This document shows positions 32,385-44,349 of a DNA stretch of 64,000 bases, piece by piece. Below the pieces are notes generated by a model. It was not told the DNA's origin, searched no databases, and saw only the letters and a list, made by a program, of their open reading frames with translations. Position numbers and translations under genes: made by a program. Each line of letters opens with the position of its first letter. Positions within the stretch are counted from its first letter, which is position 1. Source of the stretch: an uncultured Clostridia bacterium (GTDB lineage Bacteria; Bacillota; Clostridia; Oscillospirales; Ruminococcaceae); NCBI GenBank assembly GCA_947631445.1, contig CANRLN010000001.1, forward strand, positions 1 to 64,000. The letters are read 5' to 3'.

Positions 32385-32393
32385 ATAAATACA

Positions 32394-32425
32394 AAAATCC
32401 CCCACCATTGATGGGGGATTTTTTT
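32394..32425. terminator. Bidirectional terminator between argS and the sugar operon
   Basis: AATCCCCCACCATTGATGGGGGATT with A-run before and T-run after. It serves argS and the converging permease gene, whose stop codon lies at its edge. Confidence 0.88.
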
Positions 32426-33464
32426 ACGCTCCGCCAAGCCCAGAACGTTCAATTCCCTCAACAAAATATTTTTGTAGGAAAATATACATGATAAGAAGTG
32501 GCAAAATAGATATAAGGCAACCAGCCTCAAGCCACACTATAATCTGCCTTGTGGAAACGCTTGCACCATCAAAAAGCTGTTGACTGAGCGTAATATTTAA
32601 ATTTTTCAACTGAAGTGCAACCGTTGTGCTTTTGGTGAAAAAAGAGGAGGAAATATAGTAGTCGTTCCAATACCATACAATCGAAAATAAAAACACCGTA
32701 AGAAAAGAAGATTTCGCATTGGGAATAATAATCTGAATATAGGTTCTAAAAGGATTGCAACCGTCAAGATATGCAGCGTCCTCCAACTCTTTTGGAAGTC
32801 CTTTGAAAAACTGGCAGAAGATAAATATAAAAAGTCCCGACCTTATCCCACACCCAAACAATGCAGGAGCATACATGGTTATTGGACTGTCAATAAGATT
32901 TATACAGTCCCCCGTCAAAAGGGTTGGAATTTTAAAAAGGTCAAAATAGGTGTACTGTAAAAATATAGGTATTGTTGTAATCTGTGGCGGTACTATAATC
33001 ATAAATATTACAATGGCAAACAAAAACTTTTTACCCTTAAACTTAAATCTTGCAAAACCATAGCCGGTAAGCGAACAGGTTATAAGCGAAAGCAGGGAAG
33101 AAATAATATTAAGCTCCAAAGTGTTAAGCACACTGCCAGTAAAATCCATAACCTCCCAAACATCTTTAATGTTGCTTAGTGTAAGACTTTTGGGAATCCA
33201 AACAACCGATGGGTCACTCATCTGCTGGCTTGGTCGAAAGGCGGTTGAGAGCATAAATATTATAGGATAAAGAATAACAAAGCAAAGTCCAAACAGAATA
33301 AAAAATCTAAAAAGTGGGAAAGCAAAACCCCCAAATGCTTTTTTGCGATTATATTTTATATCTTCTGGGGTAAGGATTCCATCTTGTTTCATTCGTTTTA
33401 ACCTTGCCTTTTTAGAGGCTTTTAACTGCTTGTTTATAAGTTTTTGTTCTTTTGCTAAATTCAA
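32424..33464 (-). CDS. Carbohydrate ABC transporter permease, MalG type (second pair)
   Basis: A 346-residue inner-membrane permease subunit. A basic cytoplasmic N-terminus of about 50 residues precedes six membrane helices. The EAA loop that contacts the ATPase reads LEDAAYLDGCNPFRTYIQII near residue 245. It is the last gene of the eight-gene block and follows its MalF-type partner after 110 bp, a gap that holds one interspersed hairpin. The ATPase must come from elsewhere, as with MsmK-type shared subunits. Substrate is probably a sugar or oligosaccharide. Confidence 0.9.
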   Translation of the reverse strand: MNLAKEQKLINKQLKASKKARLKRMKQDGILTPEDIKYNRKKAFGGFAFPLFRFFILFGLCFVILYPIIFMLSTAFRPSQQMSDPSVVWIPKSLTLSNIKDVWEVMDFTGSVLNTLELNIISSLLSLITCSLTGYGFARFKFKGKKFLFAIVIFMIIVPPQITTIPIFLQYTYFDLFKIPTLLTGDCINLIDSPITMYAPALFGCGIRSGLFIFIFCQFFKGLPKELEDAAYLDGCNPFRTYIQIIIPNAKSSFLTVFLFSIVWYWNDYYISSSFFTKSTTVALQLKNLNITLSQQLFDGASVSTRQIIVWLEAGCLISILPLLIMYIFLQKYFVEGIERSGLGGA

Positions 33465-33531
33465 ATTAAATCACTTCCAGTTTATTTTTATAATTAATAT
33501 TCGCTTTTGCAGTTTTTAAAATAATTCTTGC

Positions 33532-33558
33532 GTTTCCCCGCCGTAGGCGGAGGAATAC
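33532..33558. repeat. Interspersed hairpin element, core only, inside the operon
   Basis: GTTTCCCCGCCGTAGGCGGA..GGAATAC between the last two permease genes. As RNA it would form a stable stem and could reduce expression of the last gene. Confidence 0.65.
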
Positions 33559-33574
33559 ATAAAAATAATAATTT

Positions 33575-34516
33575 CTATTCCACTTCATAATAAACAAATT
33601 TATTTACAAACAATGCCACAATCGCAAGAACTATTCCTACAATAGCAAAATATATCCAAGCCATAGCAGCAGAATAACCGTGTTGCCATTCGCTTGCCTT
33701 TGAAAGCACAATCTGCATTACTGGGTTGTCGGTGGAAATAAAAGAATCAACAATAGTATATACAACACTTGCAAGAATCATAGGGCTTATGTAAGGCAGG
33801 GTTACTTTCCAGAAAAATTCCCATGAGGTCGCTCCCTCAATCTGTGCCGCCTCCTTTGCCGAAACCGAAATGTTTTGAAGTGCCGATAAAAACAACAATA
33901 TTTGTATGCCAGAATTCCACACAAGATTAAAAATTTGCCCTGTAACGGCTTGTATTGCCATTTCAAGTTTATCGCTTATGCCATACACACCAATAAATTC
34001 AAGCACCTGAGAAACAAGGTCGGTTTGAAACATAGAACTAAACTGTTCAGAACCTCCAGCATATCCGCCACTGCTCATATTGCCGTTTATAATCTCAATA
34101 ACTGGACCTGTGGCAATAATAACCGGCAGAAAAAATACCGACCGCACAAAGGTTCTCCCACGGAATTTCTGATTTAAAATTGTTGCAACAAAAATAGAAA
34201 AGATAAGTATAAGCGGAGTTTTTATAGCTGTGTCTTTAAGCACCGACACAAGAGCCTGTAAATAATCGGTATTGGTTGTAAAAGCGTTTATATAGTTGTG
34301 AAAACCAAAATTGGTAAGCTCCATTTTGCCGTTTATGGGTTTGGTGTCATAAAAAGAATATCTAAAGCATTTAATTAAAGGCAGAATAAAAAAATATATC
34401 ATGCCTACAAACCAAAGGGCAATAAATCCATAGCCATAAAGCGATTTTTTTCGCTCGTAGGACGGCTTTTTTTTAGATTTAATATTTTTATTGTTTTTTA
34501 CATTTTTATTTTTCAA
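33575..34516 (-). CDS. Carbohydrate ABC transporter permease, MalF/UgpA type (second pair)
   Basis: A 313-residue permease with a Lys/Asn-rich N-terminus and six membrane helices. The EAA motif is SAKEAAQIEGATSWEFFWKV near residue 215. A loop of about 40 residues after the third helix is rich in Gly and Ser. The start overlaps the end of the DUF5696 gene by 11 bp, which argues for a direct functional tie between those two products. Confidence 0.9.
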   Translation of the reverse strand: MKNKNVKNNKNIKSKKKPSYERKKSLYGYGFIALWFVGMIYFFILPLIKCFRYSFYDTKPINGKMELTNFGFHNYINAFTTNTDYLQALVSVLKDTAIKTPLILIFSIFVATILNQKFRGRTFVRSVFFLPVIIATGPVIEIINGNMSSGGYAGGSEQFSSMFQTDLVSQVLEFIGVYGISDKLEMAIQAVTGQIFNLVWNSGIQILLFLSALQNISVSAKEAAQIEGATSWEFFWKVTLPYISPMILASVVYTIVDSFISTDNPVMQIVLSKASEWQHGYSAAMAWIYFAIVGIVLAIVALFVNKFVYYEVE

Positions 34517-36866
34517 TATTTTCGCCCTCCTTAAGTTTACTTGTATCTATATTCTGCCCATTGAATTTTATTGTGTTTTGGTCTGTGTCAACCTGCAATA
34601 CAATTTTGTCTGCTCCCTCTCCAAAAACGGCAGTTAAAATATTGTTGTTATCCCCCGAAACGGTATAGCTGGTAAACTCAAGATTGCTTATATACTGCAT
34701 TGTTTGCAAGACAATTTCATTTTGTGCCTTTATATCGCCAAGCCAGCCCGAATAATTGGCATAAAAAAGTGTATCATAGTCGGTGTCGACAACCTCCGAA
34801 GCCTCGCTATAAAAAAAATCATAGTGAAGATTACTTCCCGAAACTATCGCCCTTAAAAATGTTTCGGTAGGGTCGGAGCTTTTGTTTATTGCGGTAACAG
34901 CGTGTTCAATATATCCATGCACCGCCATTTGATAAAACGGAATTTCATAATCTTCTATATTAAAACCACTTGAATATATCGGCAAATCGGTTAAAGCATT
35001 TGCATACGGAATAACATAAGCATTAGGATTTTGCCCTAATACTTTAAGGTCTTTGGAAGCTTTTTCAAGTTTTTTTTCAACCGTCTGCATTGTTTTTTCA
35101 CGGCTAAAGTTTTTCTTTTTTGAATGGTCGCTAACAAGCATACTGTTATAATCTCCAAAGCAAATTCCCTTATAACCTTTGTTTTTAAAGCTGGAAACAA
35201 GCCCGTCCATAACCTCGGAATATTTGGAGGGTGAAAGCAGTGCAGGCGAAACGCTTGTAAGCGGAACACCAAAAGCCACAGAATATTCCGATTGCCTTGA
35301 ATAAGCGTTGGAAATTCTTATTGCAGTCGAACCAAGAACAGGATAATCAAAACTTCCCTTTTCCATAATAGTGTTATCTTGAGAAAGATATATATCGGCA
35401 TTATCCTTTTCTACTTTTTTTATAAGCTTGTCCAAAGCAGATTTTCCGCCAAGTTTAGAACTTGCCGATGCACCGTCTGAAATCTTGTTTTTAATGCTGT
35501 CATTTGTCCAGTCGTTGTAATTAATAGCATAGTCACCTATTCCATTTTCTTTAAGAGCATCTATAATCTTACCTGCCTGTTCAAATCCAGTTGTTTTGGT
35601 TTTCTGATTTATTGGAACGCCAAGCACAGATTTTTTCTTAAGTACACCGCCATAAAAATCCACATAAAAACTTGAGCAGTTTATATTTTCTTTTTTGGAA
35701 AATCCTTGATTTACAAGATAATTTCTATAAACCCTTGCAATATCGGCAGGGTTTAAATCTTTCTGTTTATCCTGCACGGGATAGTAGCAAACTTCTATTT
35801 TATCAGTTTTTATTTTACCTTTTTCAAAAACTGTTATCTGGTCGGTGTTGTCACCACCCATATAATATCCATCGGAACTTCTAAGCTCAAATTGAAAATA
35901 GCAGGTATTATATGTTTGATTGTTCTGTCCGCATACATTAGCCTTTGCAAAACAGTTTCCATCTCCGCTTGAGGCAATTTCAACCAATCCTGCGTTTTTA
36001 CCCACCGTTGCAACCACAGGGAGATATGCCTGTTCGGTTACAGCAGGGGCTTTAAGCGGAACTGCCGTGTAGTCCCTGCCATAAATCTTTTGGGAATATA
36101 CAGGATAATTTCCCTTATTGTTATTATAATTTATAACCGCTCCGCTTCCGTCCGGAACAATCATATAGCCGTCTTGCTGGCTGTCCGCCGCACCGAACTG
36201 AGGAGCAATGGCAATTTTGGTAATCTCTTTTCCGTTTTCTGATTTTATGTTGCTTTCTTTTATATCTTTTGTTTGAACATAAACTTTAAGGCAATCTTTA
36301 TTTAGCTGATAATGCACGGGTATTTCAAATCCGCCCATTCGATATTTATATTTTACAACTATTTCATTTTGGGAGGTTTTATAGGAAATTTTGGAACATT
36401 CATAAGAATACAGGTCAAGCTCCTGTCTTTTCTCCTGCCTTAGGTCGGCATAGGTTATAACAAGTGAGGAGGCAAGCTGTTTACGCTGAACCTTTTTCAT
36501 TGTTTTTCCCTGAACCTTATCCACAACGGCAATGTCGGCATAAGCATTTACTGGACTGTTCCACCAATATTTATCCGCCTGCTTGTCATAAAGTGCGATA
36601 CGGTCGTTTTCCTCATCAAGATAAAGAGCTAAATTATCATTTTCACAAGCAAGTTCACAAAGTTCTATTGCCTGCTTGTCACTAAGACATTCAGCCAAAT
36701 CCTGCTCATCAGAAGTTGTTTTATCATCACTTTGTTCATTATAATCATCTTGTTCAATTTCAGAATTTTCAGAAATAATATTATTGTTGTTTTGTGCAAA
36801 GGCAATTGAGGAATTAACCCCCAAAAGCACAGACAAACAAAGCAGATATACAAAAGCTTTTTTCAT
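34506..36866 (-). CDS. DUF5696 secreted protein, possible glycoside hydrolase-like
   Basis: A 786-residue exported protein. Residues 1-24 form a signal peptide (VYLLCLSVLLGVNSSIAFAQ), followed by an acidic Asn/Asp/Glu-rich stretch to about 60. Residues 70-330 look like a beta-sandwich (LALYLDEENDRIALYDK, YKYRMGGFEIPVHYQL). Residues 380-680 alternate strands and helices like a TIM barrel, with FYVDFYGG, DYAINYNDW, GYKGICFGDYNS and ANYSGW. I recognise the family as DUF5696, which is often found with sugar ABC permeases and Yip1 proteins. Catalysis is inferred, not shown. It has no lipobox. Confidence 0.8.
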   Translation of the reverse strand: MKKAFVYLLCLSVLLGVNSSIAFAQNNNNIISENSEIEQDDYNEQSDDKTTSDEQDLAECLSDKQAIELCELACENDNLALYLDEENDRIALYDKQADKYWWNSPVNAYADIAVVDKVQGKTMKKVQRKQLASSLVITYADLRQEKRQELDLYSYECSKISYKTSQNEIVVKYKYRMGGFEIPVHYQLNKDCLKVYVQTKDIKESNIKSENGKEITKIAIAPQFGAADSQQDGYMIVPDGSGAVINYNNNKGNYPVYSQKIYGRDYTAVPLKAPAVTEQAYLPVVATVGKNAGLVEIASSGDGNCFAKANVCGQNNQTYNTCYFQFELRSSDGYYMGGDNTDQITVFEKGKIKTDKIEVCYYPVQDKQKDLNPADIARVYRNYLVNQGFSKKENINCSSFYVDFYGGVLKKKSVLGVPINQKTKTTGFEQAGKIIDALKENGIGDYAINYNDWTNDSIKNKISDGASASSKLGGKSALDKLIKKVEKDNADIYLSQDNTIMEKGSFDYPVLGSTAIRISNAYSRQSEYSVAFGVPLTSVSPALLSPSKYSEVMDGLVSSFKNKGYKGICFGDYNSMLVSDHSKKKNFSREKTMQTVEKKLEKASKDLKVLGQNPNAYVIPYANALTDLPIYSSGFNIEDYEIPFYQMAVHGYIEHAVTAINKSSDPTETFLRAIVSGSNLHYDFFYSEASEVVDTDYDTLFYANYSGWLGDIKAQNEIVLQTMQYISNLEFTSYTVSGDNNNILTAVFGEGADKIVLQVDTDQNTIKFNGQNIDTSKLKEGENIEK

Positions 36867-36884
36867 ACTGTTTTTCCCCCTTTT

Positions 36885-37514
36885 TTAGCCCATAATTCTA
36901 TACTGAATTTCCATATATACAGTATAGATAAAATTATAAACCTGCTGAAAAAGTAGCAGAACCAGCACAAGCAAAAACAGCAGAATAAACATTGCCCCAA
37001 CCGTTGCAAGCATTGAAACAAGCGTTTTTCCAAACGAATACTGATGTACCGCCCTCATAGCTTGAACCATAAGAATTAGCGACCAACCAAAACCAAGCCA
37101 GTTAAAAAACTCAATCCAAACCGCCTCATCAAGAATAAGAATATTTGAAAGAAAGGTTGAAACAAAACTAAATACAATAAAAGGCACTAAAGCATAAGAG
37201 GTATAAATACAGATGTTTTTAAAAGTACCCTCGCCGTCAAAAAGGGTGCATATGCTCCAGTTGCCAACGCACCATGTAATATAAAATATAACACTTCGCA
37301 GTATAAGCGGAACAACATTAAATATTTTGGTGTAGTGGGTGTTGTACTGAAAGCCTTGCAATCTGTATTCGGCAAGCATGGAGAAAAACAGCATAAATAT
37401 TATAACCACAGAAAATTTAAGCGAACCCCTTTTTTTCCATCTTAAATCTTCAAATCCCTCCACAGGGTGAAATATAACATGTTTTAACCAGCCTATTTCA
37501 GAAAACTCATACAT
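36885..37514 (-). CDS. Yip1 family membrane protein
   Basis: A 209-residue protein with about five membrane helices. A short cytoplasmic start contains LKHVIFHPVEGFEDLRWKKR, the usual beginning of bacterial Yip1-domain proteins. Helices follow at about 35-52, 75-95, 108-130, 140-160 and 170-198. I chose ATG 37514 because AAAGGAGAG lies directly upstream; the longer frame to 37538 would cover that site. In related loci Yip1 proteins sit beside DUF5696 and sugar permeases. The role is unknown, perhaps assembly of the envelope complex. Confidence 0.82.
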   Translation of the reverse strand: MYEFSEIGWLKHVIFHPVEGFEDLRWKKRGSLKFSVVIIFMLFFSMLAEYRLQGFQYNTHYTKIFNVVPLILRSVIFYITWCVGNWSICTLFDGEGTFKNICIYTSYALVPFIVFSFVSTFLSNILILDEAVWIEFFNWLGFGWSLILMVQAMRAVHQYSFGKTLVSMLATVGAMFILLFLLVLVLLLFQQVYNFIYTVYMEIQYRIMG

Positions 37515-37549
37515 TATAAAATCTCTCCTTTCCTGCATTTTTGCGATTT

Positions 37550-39133
37550 TCAGGATTTTTTATGATTTTTAAAAAAACGTACAATACTACCTTTAAGATT
37601 TATTCCCAGATTTTTTATAACAGCATTTAAAATAAGCAGTAGAATTAAAATTATTATAGCCGCCGATATTATGCCGAAATGCTCCGACAGCCATTGTTCA
37701 CGGTAATATTCATATGCTTTATCATAATTTTTACGGCTCTGCGAAATTTTAAAATATTTCATTGCTTGTTTATATTCGCCGTTATAAACACAAGCTTTTC
37801 CAAGTCCAACATATGCAAGGTTGTAACCGCCGTCACGCTTTACAACCTCCTGCCATATCTCAGCAGATTCAGTATATTTTCCGTCCTCATAAAGCTTTAC
37901 CGCACTATGAACATACTTTCCGAAAACCGTTTTGGTATAAATGGTTATATCGTTTTTAGCTCCGTCCAAAATATAAATATCTTCGTCCACCGATTCGAGG
38001 GCGTTGGGTGCTTTAAAACTTCCTTTTTGATTGGAAGATTCGCTTTTCGCTCCAAAGATAAATATAAGTTCACAGTCCTGATTATACTGAAAAACCCTGC
38101 CGGTTTGATAGTCAAGAAGATTAATATATTGGTCATCGGATATGTCAATGTCGGTAAGCTTGGTGGAAAGTTTAACATTGGATGAAATATCCATTGACGA
38201 TTGATTATAATCTCCAAATGTCACACGGTTTATATATACATTGTCCCAGATGTTGTTGCCCGCCGCATTTACTTTTTTAACGGCATCGGTTGAAGTGTTT
38301 GCCGCCTCGGTTACGGTATAAATAAAACCGTCCTTGTCAATATCAAAATTCTTATACTCCACAGGAACGCTTCTTTGCATTGTGTCCAGAGCCTTTTGTG
38401 TGGCAATCTTACGCCAGAATTTCTGAGCAACAACCTTAAAAGACGGTTCTACACGGTTTGCACCATAAAATCCCATAAATTCGCCGTCACTACTAAAAAC
38501 GCAAGCCCCTGTCGTTACCGAACCAACAACCGTATATACATTGTCTGCACCGTCCACAAGAACCTTTTCTGGATTAAAAACCTTTGAATTATAAAGCTCA
38601 GAATTTGGCTTGGTGTAATTTTTAATACTTTTAAGGGTTTTGTAGTCCATAACTTCGCATTTGCACACCCTTGAGTTGTTATAGTCTGCAACATACAGAT
38701 GTGTGATGTCGTTTTCGCTGTCATATTTTGCAAATACACCGTTTGGAGAGGAAAAATTTAAAATTCCGTCCGAATGATACACCCCAATGACCTTGTTTGT
38801 TTTGGTGTCAAGACAAATAATTCGATTGTTTCCCGAATCAGCAATCCAAAGTTGCTCCAACCCTTTAAGATAAAACATATCCTTTGCCCCGTTCAAACTG
38901 TCGGATTCTTCAAGAGATATAAAAAGCTTGCTTTTGGGGTCGCAAAATTCATCAAAACCCATTTGTTTTCCGTCAACAACCCTGTCAACCTTATATCCGC
39001 TTTGAGAGGGAATAGGGTCGCCCCATTTGTCATAGCTGTAAGGATTATAAGGCTCGCTTGCAAAAGCATTTACTGATGATGAAAAAATGAAAACCACTGC
39101 AAATACAACAGATATTAAAGCTTTAATCTTCAT
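37550..39133 (-). CDS. NHL-repeat / TPR membrane-anchored protein
   Basis: A 527-residue exported protein. Signal peptide at 1-25 (VFAVVFIFSSSVNAFASE). Residues 80-400 hold NHL-type beta-propeller blades, for example LEQLWIADSGNNRIICLD, THLYVADYNNSRVCKC and LVDGADNVYTVVG. Residues 405-475 form about two TPR helices pairs (AVKLYEDGKYTESAEIWQEV, AYVGLGKACVYNGEYKQAMK). One membrane helix at about 490-510 and a basic tail anchor it with the propeller outside. The fold suggests a scaffold that binds glycan or protein next to the permeases. Confidence 0.83.
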   Translation of the reverse strand: MKIKALISVVFAVVFIFSSSVNAFASEPYNPYSYDKWGDPIPSQSGYKVDRVVDGKQMGFDEFCDPKSKLFISLEESDSLNGAKDMFYLKGLEQLWIADSGNNRIICLDTKTNKVIGVYHSDGILNFSSPNGVFAKYDSENDITHLYVADYNNSRVCKCEVMDYKTLKSIKNYTKPNSELYNSKVFNPEKVLVDGADNVYTVVGSVTTGACVFSSDGEFMGFYGANRVEPSFKVVAQKFWRKIATQKALDTMQRSVPVEYKNFDIDKDGFIYTVTEAANTSTDAVKKVNAAGNNIWDNVYINRVTFGDYNQSSMDISSNVKLSTKLTDIDISDDQYINLLDYQTGRVFQYNQDCELIFIFGAKSESSNQKGSFKAPNALESVDEDIYILDGAKNDITIYTKTVFGKYVHSAVKLYEDGKYTESAEIWQEVVKRDGGYNLAYVGLGKACVYNGEYKQAMKYFKISQSRKNYDKAYEYYREQWLSEHFGIISAAIIILILLLILNAVIKNLGINLKGSIVRFFKNHKKS

Positions 39134-39145
39134 AGCTTTACCCCC

Positions 39146-40039
39146 TTAATCTTTAATGCCCGAATTTGCCATGGTTTCCATAACGTTACTTTGTGCAGCA
39201 AGAAACACTATAAGCGGAGGTATAAGCAACAAAACCGAACAAGCAAAGGTTACCCCCTGCCTTGCAATACCCGAAAGGGAAATCTGCTGGACGATTGTCG
39301 GCAGGGTTTTAAGTTCCTCTGAATATATAAAAGCACCTGCCTGAAAATTCCATGAACCTTGAAAGGCAAATATTATAAGGGTCATAACAGCAGGTTTTGA
39401 GTTTGGAACAGCAACCTGCCAGCATATTCTAAAAAGTCCCGCACCGTCCACCTTTGCCGCCTCAACAAGCGAATCATGTATTGTTGACATGGATTGACGC
39501 ATTAAAAAAAGTCCCATTGCGGTTGAAATGTTTGGGAGTATCAATGCCCAGTATTTATCTATCATTCCCAGCTTTGCCATAACCAAAAATTGCATAATCC
39601 ATGTTGCAGAAGAACTGAACAGGAGGGCAGTTACAATAATATCGTTTATAAATTTGTTTCCGGGGAATTTGCATTTTGCAAGCACAAACCCTCCGCAACA
39701 GCACACAAAAACATTACATACACATACTGCGGCGGTTGTAAACACAGAATTGAAAACATATCTTGAAAATGGAACCCAAAGGCTTGCTGCAACCTTGAAC
39801 ATATCCGAAAAGTTTTTAAGTGTGGGGTTAAGTACATAAAGTTTTGGAGGAAACACAAACAGTTCTTCCACAGGTTTTAGCGACTGAACCACCGAATAGT
39901 AAAGTGGAAAAATCATAAAAAGTCCCAGTATTGTAAGAAATATAAATATACAAATATCCCCGCCGAGAGAGCCGTTCAATCGTTTTTTCTTTTTTACTTT
40001 TATGTTTTTTTCCAAGGATTTTTTGTTGTGAGATTTCAA
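39146..40039 (-). CDS. Carbohydrate ABC transporter permease, MalG type (first pair)
   Basis: A 297-residue permease, six membrane helices, EAA loop DSLVEAAKVDGAGLFRICWQ near residue 195. The strong GGAGGGG site points to TTG at 40039 as the start; an ATG at 40078 would give 310 residues but lie inside the preceding permease gene and upstream of that ribosome site. It sits 12 bp before the NHL/TPR gene, so the block is tightly packed. Confidence 0.85.
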   Translation of the reverse strand: MKSHNKKSLEKNIKVKKKKRLNGSLGGDICIFIFLTILGLFMIFPLYYSVVQSLKPVEELFVFPPKLYVLNPTLKNFSDMFKVAASLWVPFSRYVFNSVFTTAAVCVCNVFVCCCGGFVLAKCKFPGNKFINDIIVTALLFSSSATWIMQFLVMAKLGMIDKYWALILPNISTAMGLFLMRQSMSTIHDSLVEAAKVDGAGLFRICWQVAVPNSKPAVMTLIIFAFQGSWNFQAGAFIYSEELKTLPTIVQQISLSGIARQGVTFACSVLLLIPPLIVFLAAQSNVMETMANSGIKD

Positions 40040-40055
40040 AACTTCCCCTCCTTTT

Positions 40056-40985
40056 TTAATTTCCGACATATTTTCCAAGCAGTTTGTTTATAAATTTGTT
40101 TGCAAGTAGCATTGCAATAAAAAGTACAAAGCAGACCGCCGAAGCATAGCCCATTTCAAAGCGTATGTTGCCATAATCGGTGGCATGGTTCATAATGGTG
40201 TGGGCAGCATAGTCGGTGGAAGGCAGTCCAACAAGATTTTGCCCAACAATTCCAACCGTAAAAGAAGCAGAAATCTGAACAACCGCCGCAAACAAAAGTT
40301 GAGGTCCCATTGACGGAATTGTAATAAGAAAAAGCTCCTGCCAACGGTTTTTTATGCCCTCAATTGCTCCTGCCTCATACATGGACCTATCAATATTTTG
40401 AAATCCTGCACGGATTGCCAGAAATCCTGCACCCATGGAAATCCATAGCTGAACGACAACCACCACAGGAAGAATATAGTTTGAATCGGTAAGCCATTTT
40501 ATCGGCTGGTTTAAAATTCCCAAATCCATAAGAACCGCATTTAAATATCCGTATGAATCGTCCGAAAGGATAAGTTGCCAGGTAATATAAACCGAAGTTG
40601 TCATGGAGGGAGCATAAAACACAAAGGTAAATATAGTTTTTAAAATCGGTTTCATTTCGTTTATAAGCCATGCAAGCAGAAAACTAAGTATGTAGGAAAA
40701 AGGACCAGTAAATATAGCAAAGATAAGCGTGTTTCTTACCGCCACAAGAAAAACCTTGTCATTAAGAAAAAGGGTATAGAAATTGCTAAGCCCCACAAAT
40801 TTTGGTTTTTGCATCATATTAAAGTCGGTAAAACCCAGGGGAAGCGACATAACAACCGGAATAACGGTAAAAAGCAGAAAAAACACCATAAAAGGAGCAA
40901 GCATAAGATAACAGGAACAGTTTTTTTTCATACTTTTAAGGGTTTTAGATATTTTAGAATTTTTACTTTTTTTATTCTTTGGCAA
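40056..40985 (-). CDS. Carbohydrate ABC transporter permease, MalF/UgpA type (first pair)
   Basis: A 309-residue permease with a basic N-terminus and six membrane helices. The EAA-like loop is SMYEAGAIEGIKNRWQELFL near residue 215; the second Ala of the usual EAA is Gly here. GGAGAG lies before the ATG. The 212-bp gap to the upstream binding-protein gene contains a full interspersed element, which may modulate the ratio of binding protein to permease. Confidence 0.9.
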   Translation of the reverse strand: MPKNKKSKNSKISKTLKSMKKNCSCYLMLAPFMVFFLLFTVIPVVMSLPLGFTDFNMMQKPKFVGLSNFYTLFLNDKVFLVAVRNTLIFAIFTGPFSYILSFLLAWLINEMKPILKTIFTFVFYAPSMTTSVYITWQLILSDDSYGYLNAVLMDLGILNQPIKWLTDSNYILPVVVVVQLWISMGAGFLAIRAGFQNIDRSMYEAGAIEGIKNRWQELFLITIPSMGPQLLFAAVVQISASFTVGIVGQNLVGLPSTDYAAHTIMNHATDYGNIRFEMGYASAVCFVLFIAMLLANKFINKLLGKYVGN

Positions 40986-41068
40986 AATTATTCTCTCCTT
41001 TCTTAAAAATAATTTTATAATAATTATTATTTTAGTTCGTTTTAGTATTCCCCATCAATAGCAATATT

Positions 41069-41192
41069 TGGTTGTGAATAAACAAAATAGTTGTTTATTT
41101 TACTTTTTTATTTGTAGTGTTTCCCCGCCGTAGGCGGGGAAACACACAAGATTTTTTTAATTAATCTTATTTAACAACGCAAATTTACCAAT
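41069..41192 (-). repeat. Interspersed hairpin element, full-length copy inside the operon
   Basis: Ends are TTGGTTGTGAATAAACAAAA and, on the opposite strand, TTGGTAAATTTGCGTTGTTA. The core is a perfect 12-bp stem: GTGTTTCCCCGCCGTAGGCG..GGGGAAACAC at 41118-41145. It lies between the binding-protein and first permease genes and would be part of the mRNA. Confidence 0.8.
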
Positions 41193-41197
41193 ATATT

Positions 41198-44191
41198 TTA
41201 TTTATTGTTTTGAATATTTTCAAGTTTTCTTTCAATTTCTTTGTTAATCTCTTTGTTGTACCAATAAAGTGTATCACGGGGATTTTTAGCATTGTTTACC
41301 GTTTCTCTAAAAGCGTTCATAATATCACGAGTTACAGCATAAGAAGCGGGAATAATAGGTATTTCAACCTGCTGTTTCAGTTGCCCAACCAACTTTTCGG
41401 TTTCGCTGGTTGTCCAAGACAAATGCTTTAATGCCTCTATATTTGCCGTGTCAAATCTTCCCATTGTGCCTAAAACCGATTCTATTTGGTTTGCATATTC
41501 AATCTGAACAGGAGTGCTTGTAAACCAGTTTATAAAATCCCAAGCCTGCTCAACATCAGCCGCTTTTTTGTAGATAACCGCTCCTGACCCCTGCGAATTG
41601 GAGGCATGAGAAATGCTACCGTCCGCCTGCACCGTTCCAGGCATCTGCATAAAATCCCAACAATCTTTAATTTCGGGGGCTGCAACCGCAAGTTGATTAT
41701 AGAAAGTATAGTTTTGAATTACAATCGGCATATCACCCTGCCTAAATCTTGTAAAAGCGTCATATTTTTGTTCAAAGCTATATTTTGTATAAAATTCCGT
41801 CCACATTTTAAAGGCATCAACAGCCGTTTGACTGTCAAAGGTAGTTTTTGTCTGCTCATCATTATAATAGTTAATACCGCTTTGCAAAAGCAATGTTGCA
41901 AAGGTGTTACCCGCCTCTGTTGTGGTGGAAATAACAGTTGTGCCGCCGTTTATTGTGGCTATGGGAAGAATAAGACCGACCTCCATATATTTTCTCTGGA
42001 GGGTAGGCAAAACATCTATAAGACCCTGCCATGTTTGCAGGTCTTTTTGTGGGTCTATTCCAAGTTCCTTTAAAACATCGGTTCGATAAAAAAGCATTGG
42101 GAAGGTTTGGGAAACAGGAAGTCCGTAAGTTCCGCCATTGTACTTATATAAAACGGTTGCGTCCTTTGAAAATCTTGAAAGGGTGTCTTTAAAGCCGTTC
42201 ATATCCTCCAAATTTACAAGCACGTCTCTTGCCGCAAGTTGAATGGGAAAATCCCCACCAAGAAACAACGCAATATCCGGACCTTGACCGGCAAAGGTCG
42301 CTTCAACCATACCGCTCTGAACAAGTTTTATTGCAATTTTGGTTTTTGCCGTGGGGTTATATTCGCTGTCAACAATCTGTTTTACAACATTTGCATTGTC
42401 ACGTCCAAGTGTTATCCAGCAGGTCATTGTTTCGGTGTTTTGGTCAAAATCGGAAAGTGAGTTGTAGTCCTCAAAAAAAGAACCAATAAAGCCTTTAAAA
42501 CCAAAAGAAAGAGATTTTAAAAATTTTTTGTTACAATCTGTAAAATCCAAATCTGACGAACATATTTCAATTCTATCTAATTCAAGTGGCTGTTGCCTGT
42601 AAGTGGCAACCCAAGAGGAAAGCGAGGTTATATTGTCCTTAATCTGGTTCATAAGATTGGGAATACGGTCGGTTTTAGCGGTGCATTTGTCAAGAATAAT
42701 TGCCATTTTATCAAGGGTTACCGCCTCTGAACCGCCACTTTCCGAAAGCTGCTCAATCTGTTTTTGATATTCCCTAAGCTGTTTGGAATAGCTTTTAAAA
42801 TCATCTACAATTGTTGGAACAACCTTATCTATTCTGTAATTGTTGTTTTCGTCTGGTGTAGGACCTGTAACCTGCCTTATCTGTCTGTAATAGCTATTAA
42901 TCTCATAGGTCAGGTTGTCCAGATTGTTCATAATCTCACCAATTTCCCCAGGAATTGCCTCAAGAGTTATGGTATTTTTACCCTTTTTAAGATAAACATA
43001 CACCATTTGATTGTTTTGGTCTTTGGGCGAAGTAACACTCCAGTTTTCGTTATAATAAAATTTAACCTGATTTAATGGTTCACTTTGAACCTCACCATTA
43101 ATTAAAATTCTGCGGTTGGAATACATTCCACGCATTTGGTTTTGCCTTGCACGGATACCAATTTTATAATATCCCTCCTGCTCTATATCAAATTCCCAGC
43201 TTGCCGACTGGGTCGCCTGCGACCAGTTGGAGCCACCGCCTATGGTGTTGTATCTTGTTTTGGTGGGAGACGCTCCATTGGAAGATGAGGTTATATAATT
43301 GTGGGCATCACTTGTTGGAAACAACGAGCGGTCGGATTTATAATCGGCAAGTTCACCCTCAAGAATTATTTTCTGTCCGTTTGTTTTGGCTATATCATCT
43401 TTAGACGGTGCAACATATTTTTCAGGCGGTTTTTGATTATAAAATTTTATATAGTTTATTGCAAACTGTGCCTTGTCGGATTTGATGTTTATTCTATGTT
43501 TTCCCTGCTCAAAATAAAAAATCAATGGTTGGTTGGAAAGTCCATCGGTATCCTTAAGAGTTTTTGCCTGCCACAAAGGTTTTTCAACCTGTGCGGGGCG
43601 TATATCATTTTGTTTTTTATCCTGTGCAATATTTTCTCCGTCTGTGCTTAAATCGTCAGGGCTATTAATCCACACCTTGCTAAGCACAATTCTTGAAGCG
43701 GTATCATAAGGGGCTTTACCGTCAATTTCCAAAGACAGTTCAACATTGTTTGTGTTTACTGCCGGACAATAATACATAAATTCCATATTGTAAATTCCCG
43801 ATTTTGGAATATCAACATCAAAGAAAATTTCACCTGTTTGGCTTTCCCAATAAAAGGCGTTTTTGCCATCTAACCTTTCGGATTTTGAAAATTCTATTTT
43901 GGCATTTTTAGCTGGAAAAATTTTATCATATGTAATTTTTATTTGGTTTTGCGGTTTTTCATATCCACCATACTTTTTAAGATAGTTTGCGTAACTGTTT
44001 TCTCTTTTGGATAAAAATATATCCTGCTCATCGGTTGTTATGTCATCGATTGTAGAAAGAGGGGGATTTTGGTCATCTGTAACCACATTATCCTGTGCAA
44101 ACGACCCAAAGGGTATATTATATATTCCCACCAATGCCGAAATGACAAATGCAAAAAAGCGTTCAACCAATAAATTTTTCAATATTTTCAC
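41198..44191 (-). CDS. Oversized extracellular solute-binding protein with carbohydrate-binding-like domains
   Basis: A 997-residue exported protein, more than twice a normal binding protein. Residues 1-33 are a signal sequence ending in GSFAQD with no lipobox Cys. Residues 55-250 and 275-435 are two beta-rich modules like CBM6/35 domains (IFFDVDIPKSGIYNMEFMYY; SWEFDIEQEGYYKIGIRARQ with KKGKNTITLEAIPGE). Residues 450-540 are helical. Residues 560-960 are a family 1 type binding-protein domain (ATFAGQGPDIALFLGG, GTYGLPVSQTFPMLFYRTDV, DFINWFTSTPVQIEY). First gene of the block; promoter at 44321-44349. It probably captures a large glycan. Confidence 0.86.
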   Translation of the reverse strand: MKILKNLLVERFFAFVISALVGIYNIPFGSFAQDNVVTDDQNPPLSTIDDITTDEQDIFLSKRENSYANYLKKYGGYEKPQNQIKITYDKIFPAKNAKIEFSKSERLDGKNAFYWESQTGEIFFDVDIPKSGIYNMEFMYYCPAVNTNNVELSLEIDGKAPYDTASRIVLSKVWINSPDDLSTDGENIAQDKKQNDIRPAQVEKPLWQAKTLKDTDGLSNQPLIFYFEQGKHRINIKSDKAQFAINYIKFYNQKPPEKYVAPSKDDIAKTNGQKIILEGELADYKSDRSLFPTSDAHNYITSSSNGASPTKTRYNTIGGGSNWSQATQSASWEFDIEQEGYYKIGIRARQNQMRGMYSNRRILINGEVQSEPLNQVKFYYNENWSVTSPKDQNNQMVYVYLKKGKNTITLEAIPGEIGEIMNNLDNLTYEINSYYRQIRQVTGPTPDENNNYRIDKVVPTIVDDFKSYSKQLREYQKQIEQLSESGGSEAVTLDKMAIILDKCTAKTDRIPNLMNQIKDNITSLSSWVATYRQQPLELDRIEICSSDLDFTDCNKKFLKSLSFGFKGFIGSFFEDYNSLSDFDQNTETMTCWITLGRDNANVVKQIVDSEYNPTAKTKIAIKLVQSGMVEATFAGQGPDIALFLGGDFPIQLAARDVLVNLEDMNGFKDTLSRFSKDATVLYKYNGGTYGLPVSQTFPMLFYRTDVLKELGIDPQKDLQTWQGLIDVLPTLQRKYMEVGLILPIATINGGTTVISTTTEAGNTFATLLLQSGINYYNDEQTKTTFDSQTAVDAFKMWTEFYTKYSFEQKYDAFTRFRQGDMPIVIQNYTFYNQLAVAAPEIKDCWDFMQMPGTVQADGSISHASNSQGSGAVIYKKAADVEQAWDFINWFTSTPVQIEYANQIESVLGTMGRFDTANIEALKHLSWTTSETEKLVGQLKQQVEIPIIPASYAVTRDIMNAFRETVNNAKNPRDTLYWYNKEINKEIERKLENIQNNK

Positions 44192-44320: not shown

Positions 44321-44349
44321 ATTATATCAATTTATTTGCTATTTGTCAA
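44321..44349 (-). promoter_or_regulatory. Promoter of the eight-gene sugar operon
   Basis: TTGACA (44344-44349), 17 bp, extended -10 TGaTATAAT (TATAAT 44321-44326). An imperfect palindrome AATTATAACTATAGTATAAT overlaps the region just downstream and could be an operator. I see no convincing CcpA cre site. Confidence 0.75.

Follow-up and report, generated by a model that had tools for sequence, protein, structure and literature searches.

What does a bacterium do with two complete pairs of sugar-importer permeases, encoded in one gene block that holds an outsized binding protein and no ATPase gene? The question is raised by a locus in the first 64,000 nucleotides (the window) of contig CANRLN010000001.1, from the 2.2 Mb draft genome of an uncultured Clostridia bacterium of the Ruminococcaceae (GCA_947631445.1), whose nearest named relatives are rumen Ruminococcus metagenome-assembled genomes (MAGs). 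Eight genes encode a solute-binding protein (SBP) of 997 residues, four MalF/MalG-type permeases, an NHL/TPR protein, a Yip1-domain protein and a DUF5696 protein, in the order SBP-MalF1-MalG1-NHL-Yip1-DUF5696-MalF2-MalG2. We think it probable that they form one operon for a conserved unit, a paired CUT1 importer, that captures plant-cell-wall oligosaccharides at the cell surface and takes them up. The order itself has been described once, in Anaerocellum bescii, but not as a unit found throughout a phylum.

The eight-gene block and its transcription

A preliminary description of this DNA had proposed eight minus-strand genes with these products between 32424 and 44191. All eight open reading frames were recovered there, and Pfam and NCBIfam matches bear out the assignments. 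The features, in order of transcription, are as follows.

44321..44349, minus strand: candidate operon promoter, TTGACA-17-TATAAT with extended -10 (12/12, consensus match only)
41198..44191, minus strand: giant binding protein, 997 aa; signal-like helix 3-24, two beta-sandwiches, connector, binding domain
40056..40985, minus strand: MalF1-type permease; EAA loop at residue 204
39146..40078, minus strand: MalG1-type permease; EAA loop at residue 206
37550..39133, minus strand: NHL beta-propeller/TPR protein; signal-like N-terminus, C-terminal membrane helix
36885..37538, minus strand: Yip1-domain membrane protein (Pfam); joined to the NHL protein in 34 related loci
34506..36866, minus strand: DUF5696 protein, predicted secreted; predicted GH129/GH101-like fold
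33575..34516, minus strand: MalF2-type permease; EAA loop at residue 222
32424..33464, minus strand: MalG2-type permease; EAA loop at residue 229
32393..32423, minus strand: candidate intrinsic terminator directly past the last stop; 14-pair stem, then T-rich tail

SBP_bac_8 matched residues 631-906 of the 997-residue protein, and all four permeases gave BPD_transp_1 or UgpA/UgpE-type matches. The other three proteins matched DUF5696 (E = 2e-143), Yip1 (E = 2e-16), and NHL with weak TPR. Hydropathy profiles show that the binding, DUF5696 and NHL proteins each start with a signal-like helix; the NHL protein has in addition a single membrane helix at its C-terminus (residues 480-514).

Gaps between the genes are short, or the genes overlap, except for 212 bp between SBP and MalF1 and about 110 bp between MalF2 and MalG2. 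The best sigma-70-type promoter match of the region lies about 130 bp 5′ of the first gene and the best terminator match just past the last stop, so that the two bracket the eight genes; a single transcript is therefore likely, as far as the sequence can tell. A split into separate transcripts was considered and rejected, given this flanking pair and given that no convincing internal promoter-terminator pair was found when one was sought within the block.

Conservation of the block across Bacillota

The block is a real, ancient, co-inherited unit. Of 61 related genomes searched for DUF5696, 28 gave a match (a few of these being weak), and gene order was read at the DUF5696 loci, at 80 named loci fetched with MalF1, and at 20 loci from the wider phylum. 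The exact order of the window is kept in 84 of about 117 loci of the DUF5696 and MalF1 sets, with most of the remainder explained by contig ends or a swapped module order, and most of the 20 phylum-wide loci hold the whole or nearly the whole block. Taken together, most of roughly 140 loci in Oscillospirales, Lachnospiraceae and Paenibacillaceae share this order, with median intergenic gaps of -4 to 19 bp. Among the matches listed, carriers include Ruminococcus flavefaciens, Lachnospiraceae MAGs, Paenibacillus, Gracilibacillus, Neobacillus and Thermobacillus. In a sample of 399 genomes of the phylum, full-length DUF5696 was present in 37, the NHL family (counted above 150 bits) in 38 and both in 37 (hypergeometric p ~1e-51, with the qualification that genomes of the same genus are not independent). 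Neighbourhood co-occurrence across genomes had been set beforehand as one test of the preliminary description, and its outcome is strong.

Gene fusion points the same way. In the 34 loci with joined genes, NHL and Yip1 form one polypeptide (NHL-TPR-helix-Yip1), which implies that the two proteins would work together at the membrane; the propeller presumably faces the outside, since the N-terminus of the NHL protein is signal-like. We found no paper on Yip1 together with NHL, or on a YIP1 family protein together with an SBP. Mirror-tree correlations among the eight genes ranged from 0.85 to 0.94 (93 loci), values that species history alone could explain, and when the comparison was limited to paralogues within one genome the distances were saturated. 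One related genome holds six divergent DUF5696 loci.

A few distant loci depart from the usual arrangement, with the second half ahead of the first or without the giant binding protein in the fetched stretch. In L066, the MalF2-MalG2 genes stand ahead of the binding-protein gene rather than at the operon end. Four loci (L199, L202, L203 and L205) read NHL~Yip1-DUF5696-MalF2-MalG2 with no giant binding protein in the stretch fetched, and genes resembling GH106, GH28 and pectate lyase lie beside some of them.

The genes beside other copies of the block hint at possible substrates. In a chosen set of 65 neighbours of diverse loci, we found members of the glycoside hydrolase (GH) families GH43, GH10, GH26 (as GH26-CBM35, with a carbohydrate-binding module, CBM), GH95, GH106, GH28, GH130, GH2, GH3 and GH5, along with further binding proteins. 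This range of families suggests that the copies may specialise in fragments of xylan, mannan, pectin and xyloglucan. The proposal of one co-inherited glycan-uptake unit holds up on gene order, co-occurrence, fusion and the plant-polysaccharide hydrolases beside related loci. The unit occurs widely among fibre-degrading Bacillota (rumen Ruminococcus, Lachnospiraceae, Paenibacillus and probably Caldicellulosiruptor), and no role is known for three of the eight protein families in it.

The genomic position of the window copy is not shared. That copy has argS, and further out murI and ddl, on one side and parAB-glyS-mnmE-gyrA-gyrB-recF-dnaN-dnaA on the other, and in the stretches read from relatives the only homologue of these flanking genes was a glyS near one locus. 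Elsewhere in the source genome, another odd CUT1 locus (L079; G000:C3:18820-28838) encodes, after its permease pair, two membrane-anchored proteins (591 and 384 aa) and two giant lipoprotein-like secreted proteins (824 and 851 aa). A further locus (L081:14846-19901, on G000:C5) holds two large secreted open reading frames, the starts of which resemble GH9 cellulases, with a LacI-type regulator and an SBP-permease set nearby.

ATPase supply and predicted folds

All four window permeases retain an EAA-like docking loop, and both pairs should therefore still dock on an ATPase. No ATPase gene lies within the block. The draft genome encodes one MalK/UgpC/MsmK-type ATPase (the single OB_MalK match), 107 kb away on the same contig, with a UgpC score of 485.6 bits against an NCBIfam cut-off of 432. 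MalF/MalG-type permeases with an EAA loop, a family 1/8 solute-binding domain and a MalK/UgpC/MsmK-type ATPase, the marks of a CUT1 importer, are thus all found. In A. bescii, a strain in which the unlinked msmK was deleted has a severe growth defect on xylan, cellulose and pectin (PMC8579813), and another importer of that species likewise has no linked ATPase (PMC12838199); the missing ATPase gene is therefore ordinary. With one unlinked gene of the right type and this precedent, use of a shared MsmK-type ATPase, as the preliminary description proposed, is most likely. In one relative (L241), the ATPase pair that precedes the block has an MsmK gene about 4 kb upstream of it.

The description of the block as ATPase-free is correct for the window but does not extend to many close relatives, in which two ABC ATPases lie just upstream, a feature of the block that is new here. 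In about 25 Oscillospirales loci, two LolD/MacB-like ATPases stand directly 5′ of the giant binding-protein gene (L086-L092, L113-L128, L053, L056 and L214 carry the pair), and the second has an AbrB/MazE-like C-terminal tail; an ABC ATPase joined to a DNA-binding-type fold is unusual. Several Paenibacillus loci have HlyD, FtsX and the tailed ATPase upstream instead. In L162:1-4410, L165, L135, L139 and L159, the FtsX-ATPase(AbrB tail) set precedes classical and giant binding proteins, and HlyD joins it where the locus extends far enough. It is conceivable from this adjacency that such ATPases energise the system or drive an FtsX-type mechanotransmission partner, the window copy being a reduced version. 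We consider this very unlikely, as the ATPases resemble LolD/MacB rather than MalK, most other loci are without them, the window has neither a LolD/MacB-like ATPase nor an FtsX permease, and a search of the whole source genome (a draft that is 89% complete) did not find the tailed ATPase.

The giant binding protein has a predicted structure (predicted local distance difference test, pLDDT, 86) with beta-sandwiches at about residues 80-255 and 270-415, a helical connector at 417-532 and an MBP/Ugp-type binding domain at 537-997. The second sandwich shows weak similarity to CBM35, and the sugar-binding domain at the C-terminus is similar to CbpB, Lin1841 and others. Most members of the family have no lipobox, in contrast to the usual Gram-positive binding proteins, and for this reason tethering may depend on the other proteins of the block. 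Bacilli and other distant loci often encode an ordinary lipoprotein as a second binding protein (SBP2), and its addition in many relatives is likewise new here.

The preliminary description had raised the possibility that the block cuts the captured glycan, and suggested looking for a barrel active site in DUF5696. Such a barrel is indeed predicted (pLDDT 86). The closest structures are the GH129 enzymes ZgGH129 and NagBb, followed by GH101 (best matches 5opq and 5wzn; E down to 3e-29; template-modelling score 0.57 on the query and 0.67-0.73 on the target), and the sequence profile weakly agrees. The catalytic acids are another matter. In an alignment of 34 DUF5696 sequences, no strand tip of the barrel carries a near-invariant acid; the strand-4 acid expected for the nucleophile (Asp572) is Asp in 15 of the 34, and the one conserved acid, Asp580, varies or is lost in more distant members. 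Because no acid at these strand tips is near-invariant, most members are probably not hydrolases, and cutting is doubtful. It is thus unlikely in our view that DUF5696 is an active GH129/GH101-type glycosidase, exo- or endo-acting, which would trim the glycan before import, despite the strong fold match and the GH129 annotation of the A. bescii gene at the corresponding place. The Pfam GH129 model (PF11308) had no match in 250 genomes, including that of the window and others that carry DUF5696, a result to be read with the fact that controls also gave none; in the window protein the Pfam scan returned DUF5696 and no GH129. In the literature searched, we found no paper naming DUF5696 (PF18952).

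Explanations of the locus and comparison with known systems

In the paired importer that we favour, the giant binding protein, helped by its CBM-like domains, would deliver an oligosaccharide to MalF1/MalG1, and MalF2/MalG2 would form a second CUT1 channel. SBP2 may serve that channel in many relatives; in the window, the channel would have to rely on the giant binding protein as well, take DUF5696 as its receptor or borrow another binding protein. Both channels would dock on the shared MsmK/UgpC ATPase encoded elsewhere. The NHL/TPR and Yip1 proteins would make up a membrane-anchored scaffold, and DUF5696, with a GH129 fold that has probably lost catalysis, would present or hold the glycan at the surface. 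Three observations weigh against this explanation: No glycosidase gene adjoins the window's own copy, the window has no second binding protein, and the window DUF5696 itself keeps Asp572 at the strand-4 tip, so that the fold could be active in some members.

The published A. bescii operon, xloEFG-X-GH129-axoFGE-xynF-xynE-xynD-xyn10A-xynX-xynB, has been read as two CUT1 importers that share MsmK, within a xylan degradation locus (XDL). Following that interpretation, the block could be two ordinary, separate importers, each for its own products of a single polysaccharide (as with XloEFG and AxoEFG), held together by co-regulation only, with NHL, Yip1 and DUF5696 as accessories. The second canonical binding protein at many loci fits this, as does the finding that NHL-Yip1-DUF5696-MalF2-MalG2 can precede or stand apart from SBP-MalF1-MalG1. 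On the other hand, the window and most Oscillospirales loci keep both permease pairs with no second binding protein nearby, and hardly any locus lacks the three non-transporter genes, which lie between the pairs in the main order. We therefore regard separate importers as possible, and as the less expected outcome. Conversely, all eight proteins might constitute a single Gram-positive surface machine for glycan uptake, a functional counterpart of SusCD in which NHL-Yip1 scaffolds the two permease pairs, a protein with a catalytically dead glycosidase fold is the glycan receptor and the giant binding protein ferries ligand to both channels. The envelope machine of the preliminary description is plausible in outline, and this specific form of it is doubtful. 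The capture of a large glycan and the four-permease assembly put forward in that description found no direct support; the published relative has been treated as two ordinary CUT1 importers of oligosaccharides.

If the three protein families of no known role make up a dedicated capture complex, the textbook importer with one permease pair would be an incomplete picture of plant-glycan uptake in fibre-degrading Bacillota. The locus offers a testable genetic entry point, as A. bescii is open to genetic manipulation and already has an msmK knockout.

Several known systems share parts of this design. MacAB/LolCDE-type systems have homologues of their ATPases (with HlyD and FtsX in Paenibacillus) adjoining the block in relatives, whereas the window has no such genes and the permeases of the block are of MalF/MalG rather than FtsX type. 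With GH129 and GH101 enzymes (NagBb, ZgGH129 and EngBF), DUF5696 shares a predicted fold of N-terminal sandwich and barrel, but at about 11-13% identity, with no Pfam GH129 match and no sign of the conserved catalytic acids. CUT1 importers that use a shared MsmK (Athe_0595-0598; PMC12838199) have in common with the window MalF/MalG-type permeases, EAA loops, an SBP of family 1/8 and an unlinked ATPase; the window differs in its two permease pairs, three non-transporter envelope proteins and a binding protein more than twice the usual length. The nearest likeness is to the XDL, for which gene order, induction on xylan and impaired growth on xylan after msmK deletion have been published (PMC8579813). 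The XDL has a second binding protein and runs on into xylanase and xylosidase genes, neither of which is seen in the window copy, and NHL and Yip1 are separate genes in the window. Judging from gene order, X and GH129 of the XDL would be NHL~Yip1 and DUF5696, and xloEFG-X-GH129-axoFGE then reads as SBP-MalF1-MalG1-NHL~Yip1-DUF5696-MalF2-MalG2-SBP2, without an ATPase gene and dependent on MsmK. The window has this XDL-type order, SBP-F-G-X-GH129-like-F-G.

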